A program made the position numbers and the translations under genes. Under the pieces are notes generated by a model. The model saw only the letters and a program-made list of their open reading frames with translations. It was not told where the DNA came from and did not search any database. From the NCBI GenBank assembly GCA_015056015.1, contig SVHD01000023.1:1-38036 (forward strand): DNA of 38,036 nt, given 5' to 3'. This stretch comes from Clostridiales bacterium (GTDB lineage Bacteria; Bacillota; Clostridia; Christensenellales; Aristaeellaceae). Positions 24,320-29,520 of the stretch are shown piece by piece; position 1 is the first letter of the stretch; every line of letters starts with the position of its first letter.

Positions 24320-25150
24320 TTATTCAGCAGCGGGAACGGTGAAGGTGGGGATAACGCCACCAGCAAAGCCTTCATTTTCCAGGATAAACTTCTGAACCTT
24401 TTCAGTGCACAGAACCTGTTCCAGGGCCTTCATCCAGGGAGCTTCAGCATTTTCGGGGGTGCAGACAACATAGTTGATATACACCTGGCCGGTCACGCCT
24501 TCAGCTTCAGTGAACAGGGCATCATCCTTAACGGTCATGCCGGCATCCAGCACATAGTTGCCATTGATCACGGCGAAAGCCACATCTTCCAGCACGGAGG
24601 GGATCATTTCGGCGTTGAGTTCATAGATTTCGATACCATTGGTTTCCACGATATCTTCCTTGGTCAGGCCGCTGTCAGCATTGGCGCCTTCGGGCAGCTT
24701 GATCAGGCCGGCATCCTGCAGCAGCAGCAGAGCGCGGGTTTCGTTGGAGGGGTCATTGGTCACAGCGATCTTGTCGCCAGCGGCGATTTCGCTCAGATCC
24801 TTCTTGGTGCCGGGATAGATGCCGTAGGGTTCGCAATGCACGCCGATGGCAGCAACCAGCTGTTCATCTTCGGGAGCATTGGCGTTGTAGTCATTCAGGA
24901 AGGGGATATGCTGAAAATAGTTGGCATGCACATCGCCGGCCGCGGTGGAAGGATTGGCGATGAAATAATCGGTTACTTCCAGAATTTCAATGTCATAACC
25001 CAGAGCTGCCATATCTTCCTTGACGAATTCCAGGATGATGGCGTGGGGAGTGGTGGAAGCGGCGATGATGATCTTTTCATTCGCCAGAGCGCAGGTGGTG
25101 GCAGAGGCCAGGCAGACCAGGGCGAGTACCAGAGCGAGCAGCTTTTTCAT
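24320..25150 (-). CDS. metQ: Methionine-type ABC transporter substrate-binding protein
   Basis: 276 residues of the NlpA/MetQ family, which presents methionine (or other sulphur amino acids) to MetNI. Hallmarks: KIIIAASTTPHAIILEFVKE, DYFIANPSTAAGDVHANYFQ, HIPFLNDYN, GIYPGTKKDLSEIAAGDKIA, VTNDPSNETRALLLLQDAGL and FAVINGNYVLDAG. The signal peptide ends ATTCALA-NEK; the two Cys there do not fit a standard lipobox, unlike most Gram-positive MetQ, so lipid anchoring is uncertain. Third gene of the metN-metI-metQ unit, 31 bases after metI, behind GAAAGGAG. Confidence 0.92.
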   Translation of the reverse strand: MKKLLALVLALVCLASATTCALANEKIIIAASTTPHAIILEFVKEDMAALGYDIEILEVTDYFIANPSTAAGDVHANYFQHIPFLNDYNANAPEDEQLVAAIGVHCEPYGIYPGTKKDLSEIAAGDKIAVTNDPSNETRALLLLQDAGLIKLPEGANADSGLTKEDIVETNGIEIYELNAEMIPSVLEDVAFAVINGNYVLDAGMTVKDDALFTEAEGVTGQVYINYVVCTPENAEAPWMKALEQVLCTEKVQKFILENEGFAGGVIPTFTVPAAE

Positions 25151-25181: not shown

Positions 25182-25838
25182 TTATCGGATACGATGATCC
25201 AAGCGGCGGGTAAGCCGCGTTCCGGTGATGGTAATGATCTGTACCATCAGCACCAATACGGCGCTGGCGCAATACATGAAATCGTAGTATTTTTTCCCGC
25301 GCTGATAGCCCTTGGTGATGGCGTAGGCGCCCACGCCGCCGCCGCCCACAGCGGAAACCATGGCGGTATAGGCCAGAATCGTGGTCACGGCCACTGCCGC
25401 CCCGTTAATCAGGGAAGGCACGGCCTCGGGAATCAATACCTTGGTAATAATCTGCCATGTGGAGGAACCCATGGACTGGGATGCCTCAATCACTCCGTGA
25501 TCCACTTCCAACAGTGAAGATTCCACCACACGCGCCACATAGGGCGATGCGCTGATCACCAGCGGAAATACCGCGGCGGTGGTGCCAATGGTGGTGCCCA
25601 TCACCACGCGGGTAACGGGAATCAGCATGGCAATCAACAGAATGAAAGGAATGGAACGCAGGAAATTGATGATTGCCCCCAGCACCGTATTAAAGGTGGG
25701 CGCCGGGCGGATACCATCCTTCCTGGTGATAACCAGCAACACCCCGAGTGGCAAGCCGATCATATAGGAGATCACCGATGCGCTTACCGTCATCATGCAG
25801 GTTTCCAGAAAGCCCTGCCACAAAAGCGGCCAATTCAT
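25182..25838 (-). CDS. metI: Methionine-type ABC transporter permease
   Basis: 218 residues with five predicted membrane helices. The family motifs are clear: TCMMTVSASVISYMIGLPLG near the N-terminus, FLRSIPFILLIAMLIPVTR, the cytoplasmic EAA loop VIEASQSMGSSTWQIITKVL, and AMVSAVGGGGVGAYAITKGY. It forms the membrane channel as a homodimer driven by MetN. Its ATG shares one base with the metN stop (TGATG), so translation is coupled. Confidence 0.94.
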   Translation of the reverse strand: MNWPLLWQGFLETCMMTVSASVISYMIGLPLGVLLVITRKDGIRPAPTFNTVLGAIINFLRSIPFILLIAMLIPVTRVVMGTTIGTTAAVFPLVISASPYVARVVESSLLEVDHGVIEASQSMGSSTWQIITKVLIPEAVPSLINGAAVAVTTILAYTAMVSAVGGGGVGAYAITKGYQRGKKYYDFMYCASAVLVLMVQIITITGTRLTRRLDHRIR

Positions 25839-26881
25839 CAGGGAAGCACCTCCTTCACTGTCAGCCCTTCATTTGTCAGATACTGGATGATCCGCTTGCA
25901 AATTGCTTCATCCTTGGGCATTTCAATCAGCATCTGCCCGTAAGGTTTTCCATTGATCCGTTTGATATCCGCGGAAAGGATATTTACATCCACTCCGCAA
26001 TTTTTCACCAGCCCGGCAATCACGGGCTGATTTTCCTTTCCGCCGTCAAATACCACTCGCAAAGCAGGGATTTCCGCACTGTTTTCTTCCTCCTGCTTGG
26101 AGGGCACAATGCCAAAGAGGCGCTTGCCGGCAGCGGAACGGGTATGCACAAATACGTCATCCACCGTGCCTTCTTCTGCAATCCGTCCGCCATCCAGAAT
26201 GGCCACCCGGTTGCAAATCTGGCGGATTACCGCCATTTCATGGGTAATAAGCACCACGGTAATGCCCAACCGCTGATTAATATCCTGTAAAAGAGCCAAA
26301 ATGGATTGGGTGGTCATAGGGTCCAGAGCGGAAGTAGCTTCATCACAAAGCAGCACTTCGGGATCGCTGGCCAGAGCCCTTGCAATGGCCACACGCTGGC
26401 GCTGGCCGCCGGAAAGCTGGATGGGATAGGCGTCCGCCTTATCCTCCAGTTCTACAATTTTCAGCAATTCCTTCACCCGGGCATTGGCCTTGGCCTTGGG
26501 AACGCCGGCTATTTCCATGGGATAGCGCACATTGCGCGCCACCGTCTTTTGCATCAGCAGATTGAATTGCTGGAAAATCATGCTGACCTTCCGGCGCATC
26601 TGAATCAATTGCTTCCCATTCATAGCCAGTATATTCTGGCCTTCGATCAAAATCTGGCCTTCGTTGGGGGTATCCAACCGGTTCATGCAGCGGATCAGGG
26701 TGGATTTGCCCGCGCCGGACATGCCGATGATGCCGTAAATCTGGCCTTTTTCGATAGAAAGATTGATGCCGTCCAGGGCGACCACTTCGCCGCCGGGCAC
26801 CTGATATACCTTGCGCAAATCGCGCACCTCAATGAGAGGCCTGTTTTCCTGTGACAAAATGCATGCATTCCTTTCAGTCAT
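25838..26881 (-). CDS. metN: Methionine-type ABC transporter ATPase with NIL domain
   Basis: About 347 residues from ATG 26881. The ATPase has Walker A IGMSGAGKST, Q-loop IFQQFNLLMQ, signature [15 protein letters not shown], Walker B VLLCDEATSALDP and H-loop ITHEM. The C-terminal 85 residues are the NIL/ACT-like domain (ALRVVFDGGKENQPVIAGLV) that binds methionine and inhibits transport in known MetN. The start is unsure: ATG 26881 lacks a good ribosome site, while TTG 26857 lies behind GAAAGG and matches the length of homologues better; the open frame up to 26935 runs into the leader terminator. Confidence 0.9.
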   Translation of the reverse strand: MTERNACILSQENRPLIEVRDLRKVYQVPGGEVVALDGINLSIEKGQIYGIIGMSGAGKSTLIRCMNRLDTPNEGQILIEGQNILAMNGKQLIQMRRKVSMIFQQFNLLMQKTVARNVRYPMEIAGVPKAKANARVKELLKIVELEDKADAYPIQLSGGQRQRVAIARALASDPEVLLCDEATSALDPMTTQSILALLQDINQRLGITVVLITHEMAVIRQICNRVAILDGGRIAEEGTVDDVFVHTRSAAGKRLFGIVPSKQEEENSAEIPALRVVFDGGKENQPVIAGLVKNCGVDVNILSADIKRINGKPYGQMLIEMPKDEAICKRIIQYLTNEGLTVKEVLP

Positions 26882-26911
26882 TGCCCGCGGCACGTCTGCC
26901 AGGGGCCTGCC

Positions 26912-26947
26912 AAAGAAAAAGCCCGTCTCGCGCATTTGCGAGCGGGC
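26912..26947 (-). terminator. Intrinsic terminator in the metNIQ leader (attenuator)
   Basis: On the minus strand GCCCGCTCGC (26938-26947) pairs with GCGAGACGGGC (26921-26931, one bulge), followed by TTTTTCTTT (26912-26920). It stands 21 bases after the leader-ORF stop and ahead of metN, so the operon can be expressed only if this structure is avoided. The GCGAGC segment in leader codons 11-13 (27001-27006) is complementary to the GCTCGC of its 5' arm (26938-26943), a candidate antiterminator pairing. Confidence 0.85.
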
Positions 26948-26967
26948 TCAACTGACAAATTCGTTCG

Positions 26968-27039
26968 TCAAGCGGCGCAGCACAAACAGCACGAGAGGAA
27001 GCTCGCGCACATGGACATTCGCATAGCAAAATGATTCAT
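26968..27039 (-). CDS. Sulphur-amino-acid-rich leader peptide of metNIQ
   Basis: A 23-codon ORF with AAAGGAGG about eight bases upstream. It begins MNHFAMRMSMCASFL and ends SCCLCCAA. Four Met (1, 6, 8, 10) and five Cys (11, 17, 18, 20, 21) make 9 of 23 residues sulphur amino acids. It lies between a perfect promoter and an intrinsic terminator ahead of a methionine-type importer. This is the architecture of a ribosome-mediated attenuator in which starvation for Met or Cys stalls the ribosome and alters folding of the leader RNA. No longer conserved protein is suggested. Translation is inferred, not shown. Confidence 0.75.
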   Translation of the reverse strand: MNHFAMRMSMCASFLSCCLCCAA

Positions 27040-27082
27040 GCGGAAGCCTCCTTTCCCGGGCTATACGCCCTTGATCGTAAAT

Positions 27083-27111
27083 ATTATAGCCCAGGGTTCA
27101 CAGAGTGTCAA
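27083..27111 (-). promoter_or_regulatory. Consensus promoter of the metNIQ leader and operon
   Basis: Minus-strand -35 TTGACA (27106-27111), 17-base spacer, -10 TATAAT (27083-27088): both boxes perfect. Transcription should start near 27076, giving a leader of nearly 200 nt before metN. Confidence 0.92.
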
Positions 27112-27171
27112 CCCCGGAAAGTGTTTTTTCGTTGTTTCATCCGGGAAAAAATGCATTTTCTGCCATTTTTC

Positions 27172-27903
27172 TCAGTTTTCTGCTTTACCTGTGAAGGCGC
27201 GGACCGCTTCGCTTTCAAATACCTGATCCGGCTTTCCTTCGGCCACTACTACGCCCTCTTCCATATAGACCACCCGATCGGCCACTTCCCTGGCGAAATT
27301 CATTTCGTGGGTCACCACGATCATGGTGCGCTTTTCCAGGGACAGCGCGCGGATAACGGATAATACCTCCTGGGTGAGCAGGGGATCCAGGGCGCTGGTA
27401 GGCTCGTCAAAGCAAAGGATATCCGGATCCAGGGCCAGGGCCCTTGCGATGGCCACCCGCTGCTGCTGGCCGCCGGAAAGCTGGCAGGGATAGGCCTTTT
27501 CCTTATCCGCCAGGCCCACTTTGCCAAGCAATTCCCGGGCATATTTTTCCGCATCCTCTTTCTTTCTGCCCAGCACGCAGATCTGCGCTTCCGTCAGATT
27601 CTTCAGCACATTCATGTGGGGAAAGAGATTGAAATTCTGGAATACATAGCCCATTTTCAGGCAGATACCCCGCATTTCCTTTGCCGGCGCATAAGCGCCG
27701 TCGTTTACCATCCATTTTCCGGCAATTTCGATGCTGCCCCCATCCACCTTCTCCAGGTTATTCAGGCAGCGGAGGAAGGTGCTCTTCCCCGAGCCGCTCT
27801 TGCCGATAATGGCCACCACTTCGCCTTTTTTAATCTCCAGGCTCACGCCCTTGAGCACGGGCAGAGCGCCGAAATTTTTCACGATATTTTTTGCCTTCAG
27901 CAT
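27172..27903 (-). CDS. Polar amino-acid ABC transporter ATPase
   Basis: 243 residues of the GlnQ/ArtM type. Walker [12 protein letters not shown]-loop [18 protein letters not shown], signature [16 protein letters not shown], Walker [14 protein letters not shown] and H-loop VVTHEM are intact. ATG 27903 is chosen since AAGGGGG stands eight bases before it; a GTG at 27912 is possible. It powers the permease encoded just upstream (14 bases). The substrate is a polar amino acid, not resolvable further. Confidence 0.92.
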
Positions 27904-27916
27904 CCGGCGCACCCCC

Positions 27917-28603
27917 TTACCAATAATAATTCAGCTTCTTTTCCAGCTTGCCCAGCACCAGAGAAAGCAGGCCGCTGAAAATCAGATAATACACCGCCGT
28001 AAAGAACAAAGGCCAGATGGCGCCGGAAATCCCCCGGCTGCCCTTCATGAAGGCCTGGCCCGCCCAGATGATTTCCTGCAGGGCAATAATCCGGGAAAGG
28101 GAGGTATCCTTGACCAGGGTAATGATTTCGTTGCTCATGGGGGGCACGATGGCCTTGATTACCTGCAGCAATTTCACCCGGAAAAAAATCTGCATTTTCG
28201 TCATGCCCAGCACCATGCCCGCTTCATCCTGTCCCCGGGGAATGCCCTGAATGCCGCCCCGGTAAATTTCGGAAAAATAGCAGGCGTAATTAAAGATAAA
28301 CGCCACCGACGCCGCCAGAAAGCGCCCGGCTTCCCCGCTGCCCCAGATATTATTTTTCAGCACCAGGCCGGGAAAATAATAGATGATCAAAAGCTGGATC
28401 ATCAGCGGCGATCCGCGCACGATCCATACCACCAGCCGGGTCAAAAGGCTCAAGGGCTTGAATTTGCTCATGGAGCCGCAGGCAATCACCAGTCCCAGGG
28501 GAATAGCCCCAAGCAGCGTCACAATAAAGAGCCGCAGCGTCTGCACAAAGCCCTGATTCAGCGCATCTACAACGATCGGGAATTGTTCCATAAAGGTGTT
28601 CAT
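27917..28603 (-). CDS. Polar amino-acid ABC transporter permease
   Basis: 228 residues of the HisM/GlnP family with about five helices. Motifs: GFVQTLRLFIVTLLGAIPLG, VWIVRGSPLMIQLLIIYYFP (the 'RGtPl..Qlf' motif), EIYRGGIQGIPRGQDEAGMV (the EAA-like loop) and NEIITLVKDTSLSRIIALQE. ATG 28603 is preferred to 28621 because AGGGG precedes it. Only one permease gene is present, so it would act as a homodimer. It sits between the binding-protein and ATPase genes. Confidence 0.92.
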   Translation of the reverse strand: MNTFMEQFPIVVDALNQGFVQTLRLFIVTLLGAIPLGLVIACGSMSKFKPLSLLTRLVVWIVRGSPLMIQLLIIYYFPGLVLKNNIWGSGEAGRFLAASVAFIFNYACYFSEIYRGGIQGIPRGQDEAGMVLGMTKMQIFFRVKLLQVIKAIVPPMSNEIITLVKDTSLSRIIALQEIIWAGQAFMKGSRGISGAIWPLFFTAVYYLIFSGLLSLVLGKLEKKLNYYW

Positions 28604-28631
28604 CTTTTTTGCCCCTGTCATAACAAGAGGA

Positions 28632-28664
28632 CAGCCGGGACTGCATTTTTTCGCAGCCCGGCTG
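28632..28664 (-). promoter_or_regulatory. Stable hairpin between binding-protein and permease genes
   Basis: CAGCCGGG (28632-28639) and CCCGGCTG (28657-28664) pair, and the inner CTGC/GCAG extends the stem around an A/T-rich loop. There is no T run after it on the minus strand, so it is more likely to stabilise the upstream binding-protein mRNA or cause partial stopping than to end transcription. Confidence 0.65.
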
Positions 28665-28689
28665 CCATTGCTTTATTCTTTGTCAGTCA

Positions 28690-29478
28690 TTATTCCGCAG
28701 CCACCTGGGGGATAATGGCAGCCTGCACCTTATAGGTTTCGGCAATCTGCTGCATGGTGCCGTCGGCCCAGGCTTTGACCATGAAATCATTCAGGGCGGC
28801 AGCCAGATCGGAGCCCTTGCGGAAGCCCACGCCGTATTCTTCGCTGTTGAGGCCGAAGGTGTAGGTGAGGGCTTCATAGCCGGTGCCTTCGCCCACCATG
28901 GCGGCGGCCATCAGGGAGTCGATCACGGCGGCGTCACAGGTGCCGGCGGCCACTTCCATCAGCGCGTCAGCCTGGGTGGCAACGGCGGTCTTTTCGTAGC
29001 CCAGCTTGTCAATTTCGGCTTCACCGGCGCTGCCGGCTTCCACAGCGAAGACCAGCTTGGCCATGGCGGCCACATCGGCATAATCCGCAGCCTTGGCAAC
29101 AGGCAGGATCACGGTCTGCGCATTGTTGGCATAGGGATTGGAGGTTTCCATGGCGGCCTTCACAGCGTCGGTCAGGGTCATGCCGTTCCAAACGCAGTCA
29201 ATGGTCTTGGCGTCCAATTCCAGAATCTTGTTATCCCAGTCGATTTCAACGAATTCATACTTCACGCCCAGGGATTCGGCAAAGGCCTTGGCCATATCCG
29301 CATCAAAGCCGATCCATTCGCCGTTGGCGTCCTTATAATCCATGGGAGCGAAATCCGTAATACCCACAACCAGGGTGCCCTTGGCCTTTACATATTCCAT
29401 ATCGGTTTCCGCCATGGCGGGGGCGCACAGCATCAGGGCCATCATCGCAACCAGGATCATGCTCAGCAACTTTTTCAT
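28690..29478 (-). CDS. Polar amino-acid ABC transporter substrate-binding protein
   Basis: 262 residues of the SBP_bac_3 family. After a signal peptide (MKKLLSMILVAMMALMLCAP, cut after AMA) come YVKAKGTLVVGITDFAPMDY, WIGFDADMAKAFAESLGVKY, WNGMTLTDAVKAAMETSNPY and YGVGFRKGSDLAAALNDFMV, all family hallmarks. LMLC is a poor lipobox. Start at 29478 has GAGG nine bases before it; an in-frame ATG at 29514 would add a basic extension. First gene of the importer operon, followed by a hairpin that may raise its expression relative to the permease. Confidence 0.92.
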   Translation of the reverse strand: MKKLLSMILVAMMALMLCAPAMAETDMEYVKAKGTLVVGITDFAPMDYKDANGEWIGFDADMAKAFAESLGVKYEFVEIDWDNKILELDAKTIDCVWNGMTLTDAVKAAMETSNPYANNAQTVILPVAKAADYADVAAMAKLVFAVEAGSAGEAEIDKLGYEKTAVATQADALMEVAAGTCDAAVIDSLMAAAMVGEGTGYEALTYTFGLNSEEYGVGFRKGSDLAAALNDFMVKAWADGTMQQIAETYKVQAAIIPQVAAE

Positions 29479-29520
29479 CTTAATTTTCCTCTTTTCCAAT
29501 CTTTGTTTCTTCATTTTCTT

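Follow-up and report, generated by a model that had tools for sequence, protein, structure and literature searches.

Architecture and conservation of the metNIQ leader

We analyzed a stretch of 38,036 nucleotides from a Clostridiales bacterium (Aristaeellaceae; assembly GCA_015056015.1, contig SVHD01000023.1), referred to below as the window. On its minus strand, the importer operon metNIQ is preceded by a promoter, a short leader open reading frame (ORF) rich in methionine (Met) and cysteine (Cys) codons, and an intrinsic terminator. This arrangement, with its TTGACA-17-TATAAT promoter, had been reported in a preliminary description of the locus and every element is present as described; the distance of 21 bases given between leader and terminator is correct when the stop codon is included in the count. 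Translation also bears out the Met codons at positions 1, 6, 8, and 10 of the leader and the Cys codons at positions 11, 17, 18, 20, and 21. Ribosome-mediated attenuation of metNIQ through this leader had been proposed as well, and the comparison with relatives strongly supports that class of control. Our analysis suggests that metNIQ of this gut clostridium is very probably controlled by a transcription attenuator that senses Met, and possibly Cys too, through the translating ribosome. The features of the locus are the following:

27106..27111, minus strand: promoter -35 box TTGACA, a consensus match
27083..27088, minus strand: promoter -10 box TATAAT, with a spacer of 17 nucleotides (nt) to the -35 box
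27047..27054, minus strand: Shine-Dalgarno sequence AAAGGAGG of the leader, upstream of the ATG at 27039 (from sequence)
26968..27039, minus strand: leader ORF MNHFAMRMSMCASFLSCCLCCAA, 23 codons followed by a stop codon (from translation; conserved in relatives)
27022..27024, minus strand: candidate control codon Met6, in the stall zone defined below (ATG columns conserved to 90% or more across 69 aligned elements)
27016..27018, minus strand: candidate control codon Met8, its ATG lying within a conserved CGAATG (ATG columns likewise conserved to 90% or more across these 69 elements)
27010..27012, minus strand: candidate control codon Met10, in the stall zone
27007..27009, minus strand: possible second control codon Cys11 (at least one stall-zone Cys in 61 of 73 leaders)
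27001..27006, minus strand: codons 12-13, the previously proposed alternative partner of 26938-26943 (folds in the window; covariation not above shuffles)
26967..26996, minus strand: predicted antiterminator 5' strand, comprising codons 15-23, the stop codon and one further base (from folding with 26952-26926 and from covariation)
26926..26952, minus strand: predicted antiterminator 3' strand, overlapping the 5' arm, the loop and part of the 3' arm of the terminator (from folding and covariation)
26916..26949, minus strand: intrinsic terminator hairpin and run of five T (from folding energy and covariation)
25838..26857, minus strand: metN, ATP-binding cassette (ABC) ATPase with a NIL domain and a likely TTG start
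25182..25838, minus strand: metI, permease
24320..25150, minus strand: metQ, NlpA/MetQ lipoprotein

The promoter matches the consensus at all 12 of its bases and is the sole promoter-like site in 26800-27180 (0.3 +/- 0.5 in shuffles). The terminator hairpin (26949-26919) has a folding energy of -21.4 kcal/mol (z = -5.4; none of 200 shuffles as good) and runs into five T. A simple consensus terminator scan omits it and lists a single site, the hairpin of codons 11-13 with codons 15-17 (27008-26989). The leader ORF and its ribosome binding site sit between this promoter and this terminator. S-boxes, or S-adenosylmethionine (SAM) riboswitches, and T-boxes are the RNA elements by which genes for Met and Cys are usually controlled in Bacillota. 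Both are matched elsewhere in this genome but neither is found here, as had been stated for the leader: an Rfam scan of the window gave no family at the gathering threshold, S-box (RF00162) and T-box (RF00230) included. The leader peptide itself matched no NCBIfam family.

We then examined the conservation of this leader within the family. Homologues of MetI were present at E <= 1e-20 in 65 of 100 relatives, and in many of the 79 loci fetched from relatives a short ORF resembling MRMSM...CLCCAA occupied the same place. From these loci, 31 elements were chosen by anchors and aligned, and 27 of them served to build a covariance model, R1. At the nucleotide level, CGAATGTCC and TTTGYGCTGCGCCGCTTGA are conserved among the aligned elements. 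Of 300 family genomes, 77 contained an R1 match at E < 1e-4 and 95 contained one at E <= 0.1; the 15 matches with E above 0.01 were not among the fetched loci. The gene metN lies just downstream in 42 of the 45 newly fetched loci with a strong match (E <= 1.2e-9), and the other three end before it. Outside the family, R1 found nothing convincing: matches at E <= 0.01 occurred in 16 of 297 genomes of the order, of which 11 belong to the family and five are weak (E >= 0.0024).

Ten loci with weaker R1 matches (L193-L202) were also fetched. One of these matches (L200) precedes metN. A Met-rich leader stands ahead of an operon of O-acetylhomoserine sulfhydrylase (metY) and metF at L194, and another ahead of metA followed by metNI at L195, which indicates that leaders of this type are not restricted to the importer. 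Four of the ten (L198, L199, L201, and L202) yielded no leader preceded by a good Shine-Dalgarno sequence; L202 carries a 44-codon Met-rich ORF with no clear Shine-Dalgarno sequence and a weak R1 match. Met-rich leaders were also observed near a DUF218 gene at L193, L196, and L197 (family checked for L193 and L196).

Antiterminator, codon pattern, and proposed mechanism

With a ribosome placed at the conserved Met codons, the RNA downstream of it folded into a long hairpin, which in the window pairs 26996-26967 with 26952-26926 (-32.6 kcal/mol; z = -4.1). This candidate antiterminator shares sequence with the terminator, and we searched for covariation in both structures. Two alignments were made from sequence only: A1, with 27 of the 31 hand-picked elements (near-duplicates L072 and L076 and divergent L066 and L068 left out), and A3, with 69 of the 73 strong elements (near-duplicates L151, L154, L160, and L187 left out). 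On A3, the antiterminator presented 104 double-change cells relative to 50.4 +/- 6.6 in shuffles (none of 500 as high; at most 58 when the pairing was slid), and the terminator 36 relative to 10.3 +/- 2.6. On A1, the antiterminator presented 21 such cells relative to 8.8 +/- 2.6. In the model-fitted alignment, 24 of the 26 antiterminator pairs showed double changes (14.8 +/- 1.6 expected from shuffles), with 189 cells relative to 63.8 +/- 8.2. The RNAalifold consensus on A1 is weak (-4.68 kcal/mol), which may reflect the mutual exclusion of the two structures.

We further analyzed the codons of the 73 strong leader elements, which encode 66 distinct peptides. The stall zone was defined, for an assumed ribosome footprint, as the codons that leave the first antiterminator strand uncovered when they occupy the A site. 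Met accounts for 276 of the 1054 codons of this zone and for none of the 554 codons of the antiterminator zone. The enrichment is thus limited to the stall zone and is in frame (276, 7, and 18 ATG in the three frames of this zone), all 73 leaders possess a zone Met, and 61 possess at least three. Thus, the alignment of metNIQ upstream regions that had been called for reveals conserved leader Met codons, enriched far beyond chance where a stall would free the antiterminator. The stop codon lies at a near-constant place, and by script a terminating ribosome would mask the antiterminator in 70 of the 73 leaders; in the remaining three, the script had chosen, instead of the GTG start of the leader, a start that lies in a different frame. 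The peptides vary widely and, as seen in the alignment although not counted, many of their length changes are of whole codons; one-base shifts occur in L048, L050, L053, and L069.

From this pattern we infer the stalling itself, the direction of the response, and charged Met-tRNA, alone or together with Cys-tRNA, as the signal. In the proposed mechanism, RNA polymerase would start at the promoter (27111-27083) and a ribosome would follow on the 23-codon leader. If charged Met-tRNA runs short (Cys-tRNA may count too), the ribosome would stall at Met6, Met8, Met10, or Cys11 and leave codons 15 to the stop codon free. These would pair with 26952-26926 and hold the 5' arm and loop of the terminator, and transcription would therefore read into metNIQ. 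With Met in ample supply, the ribosome would reach the stop codon and cover codons 15 to stop; the terminator (26949-26919) would then form and transcription would end.

The preliminary description had asked for the leader RNA to be folded with and without a ribosome. In these computations, the probability that the 5' arm of the terminator pairs with upstream RNA is 0.68 with the ribosome at the last Met vs 0.18 at the stop codon, and it is higher by more than 0.2 in 69 of the 73 leaders. In full-length equilibrium folding of 27 elements, the mean probability of the terminator is about 0.95 with a ribosome at late codons.

Several observations weigh against the proposed mechanism. In the same equilibrium folding, the mean terminator probability is 0.85 with no ribosome, 0.85 with a ribosome at Met8, and 0.76 at Met10, and pairing of the 5' arm still reaches 0.53 when the upstream sequence is shuffled. 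Because equilibrium folding favors the terminator with or without a ribosome and the shuffled control is high, the argument is carried by the codon pattern and the covariation rather than by energies. The stall zone rests on the assumed footprint, which places the edge of the ribosome 12 nt beyond the first base of the codon in the A site, downstream of it, and three of the 73 leaders have a single zone Met while nine have two. The model-fitted alignment leans to structure. Counts of pairs and of pair types, which are less inflated by relatedness than counts of cells, are modest on the alignments made from sequence only. For the antiterminator on A3, 15 pairs show double changes vs 12.1 in shuffles (16 of 500 as high), with 47 pair types vs 43.2 (33 of 500). 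On A1, the corresponding values are nine pairs vs 5.3 (1 of 500; slid versions reach nine and 10) and 31 pair types vs 28.7 (97 of 500). For the terminator, pair and pair-type counts are matched by 36 and 31 of 500 shuffles. These modest values arise in part because some columns are misaligned. Finally, the RNA of the window itself, before the 3' arm of the terminator is made, folds into the pairing proposed in the preliminary description (-25.0 kcal/mol) and not into the long antiterminator.

Alternative explanations

In that earlier proposal, the attenuator is of the same class but its working antiterminator is codons 12-13 paired with 26938-26943, released from a competing hairpin of codons 11-17. 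The position 27001-27006 had been given correctly for the first partner but numbered as codons 11-13. Both of the switch pairings can form in the window, and the lowest-energy fold before the 3' arm is made contains the proposed antiterminator in the window and in seven of the other 28 relatives tested. However, 18 of the 29 tested in all use the long antiterminator instead, and neither short pairing covaries above chance: codons 12-13 with 26943-26938 are paired in 69.3% of cells vs 68.4% in shuffles (79 of 500 as high), and codons 11-13 with 15-17 in 77.0% vs 77.0%. The proposal also leaves the conserved TTTGYGCTGCGCCGCTTGA block unexplained. We therefore consider it unlikely as the working switch, although the pairing may act beside the long antiterminator in this window. 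A pairing of our own, of GCGAATGT at the Met codons with ACATTCGC after the stop codon, was rejected (56.0 vs 56.9 in shuffles).

The preliminary description had left open whether Cys, Met, or both are the signal. A leader that senses mainly Cys would stall the ribosome at the C-terminal codons 17, 18, 20, and 21, and the importer would then serve cystine or cysteine. Cys makes up five of the 23 leader residues here, 107 of the 1054 zone codons and 132 of the 554 later codons across the 73 leaders, and 71 of the 781 residues in 26 more distant leaders described below; moreover, an operon for a cystine-type ABC transporter lies just upstream. But the C-terminal Cys codons sit in the 5' strand of the antiterminator, where a stall would hide this strand and favor termination, so these codons are probably not the sensor. 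Swaps between Cys and Arg (TGY/CGY) at these positions preserve the pairing, and L040, L048, L050, and L053 retain the antiterminator strand beyond an earlier stop codon. A zone Cys is present in 61 of the 73 leaders and absent from 12, whereas zone Met is present in all, and the other recognized genes behind such leaders belong to Met synthesis. The frame test is also less clear for Cys than for Met (107, 188, and 50 TGY by frame in the zone), the second-frame count being raised wherever ATG stands before a pyrimidine. A leader sensing mainly Cys is therefore quite unlikely; CCLCC probably serves RNA structure for the most part, and the likely sensor is Met, perhaps together with Cys11.

Two further explanations dispense with codon supply. 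One is a riboswitch that binds a ligand such as SAM or Met, with the ORF being incidental. It would agree with the conservation of CGAATGTCC and TTTGYGCTGCGCCGCTTGA as nucleotides, but the Rfam scan returned no match, the conserved 3' block is accounted for by the antiterminator, the Met codons are in frame, and distant leaders differ in RNA while sharing Met-rich coding; a riboswitch is very unlikely on these grounds. The other is that the nascent peptide acts by its chemistry, through metal or redox binding. Both enriched residues contain sulfur, and MxMxM, MCxMC, and similar motifs look like metal ligands. Spacing and neighboring residues nevertheless vary over the 66 distinct peptides, which have in common the Met codons of the stall zone, and most of the genes downstream serve Met uptake or synthesis, making this the most improbable of the alternatives.

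Distribution and relation to known control systems

We extended the search to more divergent metN loci, using the best 80 of at least 590 MetN relatives from named records. Among the 63 loci L232-L294, 61 were used (L278 is a family member and the upstream region of L289 is too short); their MetN proteins are 49-57% identical, and the family membership of the records was not checked for all. The titles listed include Agathobaculum, Hungatella, Enterocloster, Clostridium, and Herbinix. Upstream of metN, 26 of the 61 loci have a Met-rich ORF preceded by a Shine-Dalgarno sequence, relative to a mean of 0.1 and a maximum of one over 30 rounds of shuffling and to none on the reverse complement. Met-rich leaders are thus not rare ahead of metN; the preliminary description had considered the mechanism uncommon for this class of transporter. 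A hairpin with a T-run follows all 26 leaders (38 of 520 shuffles), which together encode 203 Met and the 71 Cys given above, with 203, 4, and 9 ATG by frame.

In seven leaders of the Agathobaculum type, a consensus fold pairs the conserved GCTCGTTTT with AAAACGAGC, or a close form of it, beside the terminator, a predicted antiterminator that is different RNA following the same logic. The consensus fold of a Lachnospiraceae-type set of 12 presents the terminator only. An Rfam scan of 20 of the distant loci found a SAM riboswitch just upstream of metN in L247, L250, and L268 and a T-box about 900 bases upstream of metN in L266, which indicates that control of metN differs among genera. A T-box also precedes metNIQ in a different family within the order (G066 contig C7 59620-59867; L100 and L214), where R1 has no match. 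We also observed more distant metNIQ leaders with MMCCC or MRMCCC (L102, L105, and L115), peptide sequences hinting at joint sensing of Met and Cys.

These observations lead to a broader reading, to which we give an even chance: throughout Clostridia, a widespread, unnamed class of sulfur amino acid leaders would control metNIQ together with some genes of Met biosynthesis, reading Met and Cys tRNA jointly through antiterminators of independent origin. At the importer, such a leader would take the place of an S-box or T-box, in a genome that retains a SAM riboswitch at metK and T-boxes at other sites.

Classical leader-peptide attenuators control the trp, his, leu, and ilv operons, and a leucine-rich attenuator peptide is reportedly known from Staphylococcus aureus. 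The element described here resembles the classical systems in its short ORF with cognate codons, its mutually exclusive antiterminator and terminator, and a stop codon placed for masking; unlike them, its leader codes for Met (and Cys) and it controls an importer. It would be a classic type of amino acid switch that is little known for Met, and in a search of the open-access PubMed Central literature, no attenuator that combines Met codons with an antiterminator and a terminator was found for Bacillota. Excerpts of one report describe leader peptides for hisS/hisZ in Bacillota (PMC2965389). The closest case is metL of Streptomyces lividans, a short ORF with Met and Cys codons ahead of the same transporter, metNIQ, and proposed as a Met leader attenuator that lacks a typical intrinsic terminator; it belongs to another phylum, and the passages of that report that we consulted describe neither an antiterminator nor conservation (PMC8079986). 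According to parts of two further reports, leaders coding for a sulfur amino acid also occur upstream of cysS in Rhodobacterales (uORFC-8-2, likewise with a terminator; PMC8632094) and in Actinobacteria (cys leaders; PMC1262725), but as described there these concern Cys only, other taxa, and other genes.

In the genome of the window, which is 84.5% complete, the single SAM riboswitch match (RF00162) lies upstream of metK, and 17 T-box matches (RF00230) at E <= 0.001 were found elsewhere, not all of them above the gathering score. A leader peptide at the importer thus appears to add a third mode of RNA sensing for Met in these bacteria. Whether one leader integrates the supply of Met and Cys can be asked in genera that are culturable, Agathobaculum among them. 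No MetA homologue was detected in this incomplete assembly, and PF01053, which is present at E <= 1e-20 in 24 of 29 genomes of the genus, gave weak partial matches only (best E of 8.4e-9; two above the cut-off). The organism may depend on imported Met.

Comparison of MetQ with solved structures placed it in the general MetQ/NlpA family, a match that does not settle its substrate. The cystine-type operon (ATPase, permease, and binding protein) lies at 27172-29514 on the same strand, and such an operon adjoins metNIQ in the window and in five others of the 79 loci, whose flanks are short. A second metNIQ of this genome (L117; G000 contig C17) has a different Met-rich leader with a MMMEMQMYMCSMCMRC core, about 170-65 bases upstream of metN; this leader has a strong terminator, a poor R1 match and an unclear antiterminator. 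In the same genus, PF01053 genes are found with a T-box match immediately ahead of them (G012 contig C53 57389-57630 and G008 contig C184 7095-7337), indicating that different RNA sensors serve the sulfur amino acid genes.
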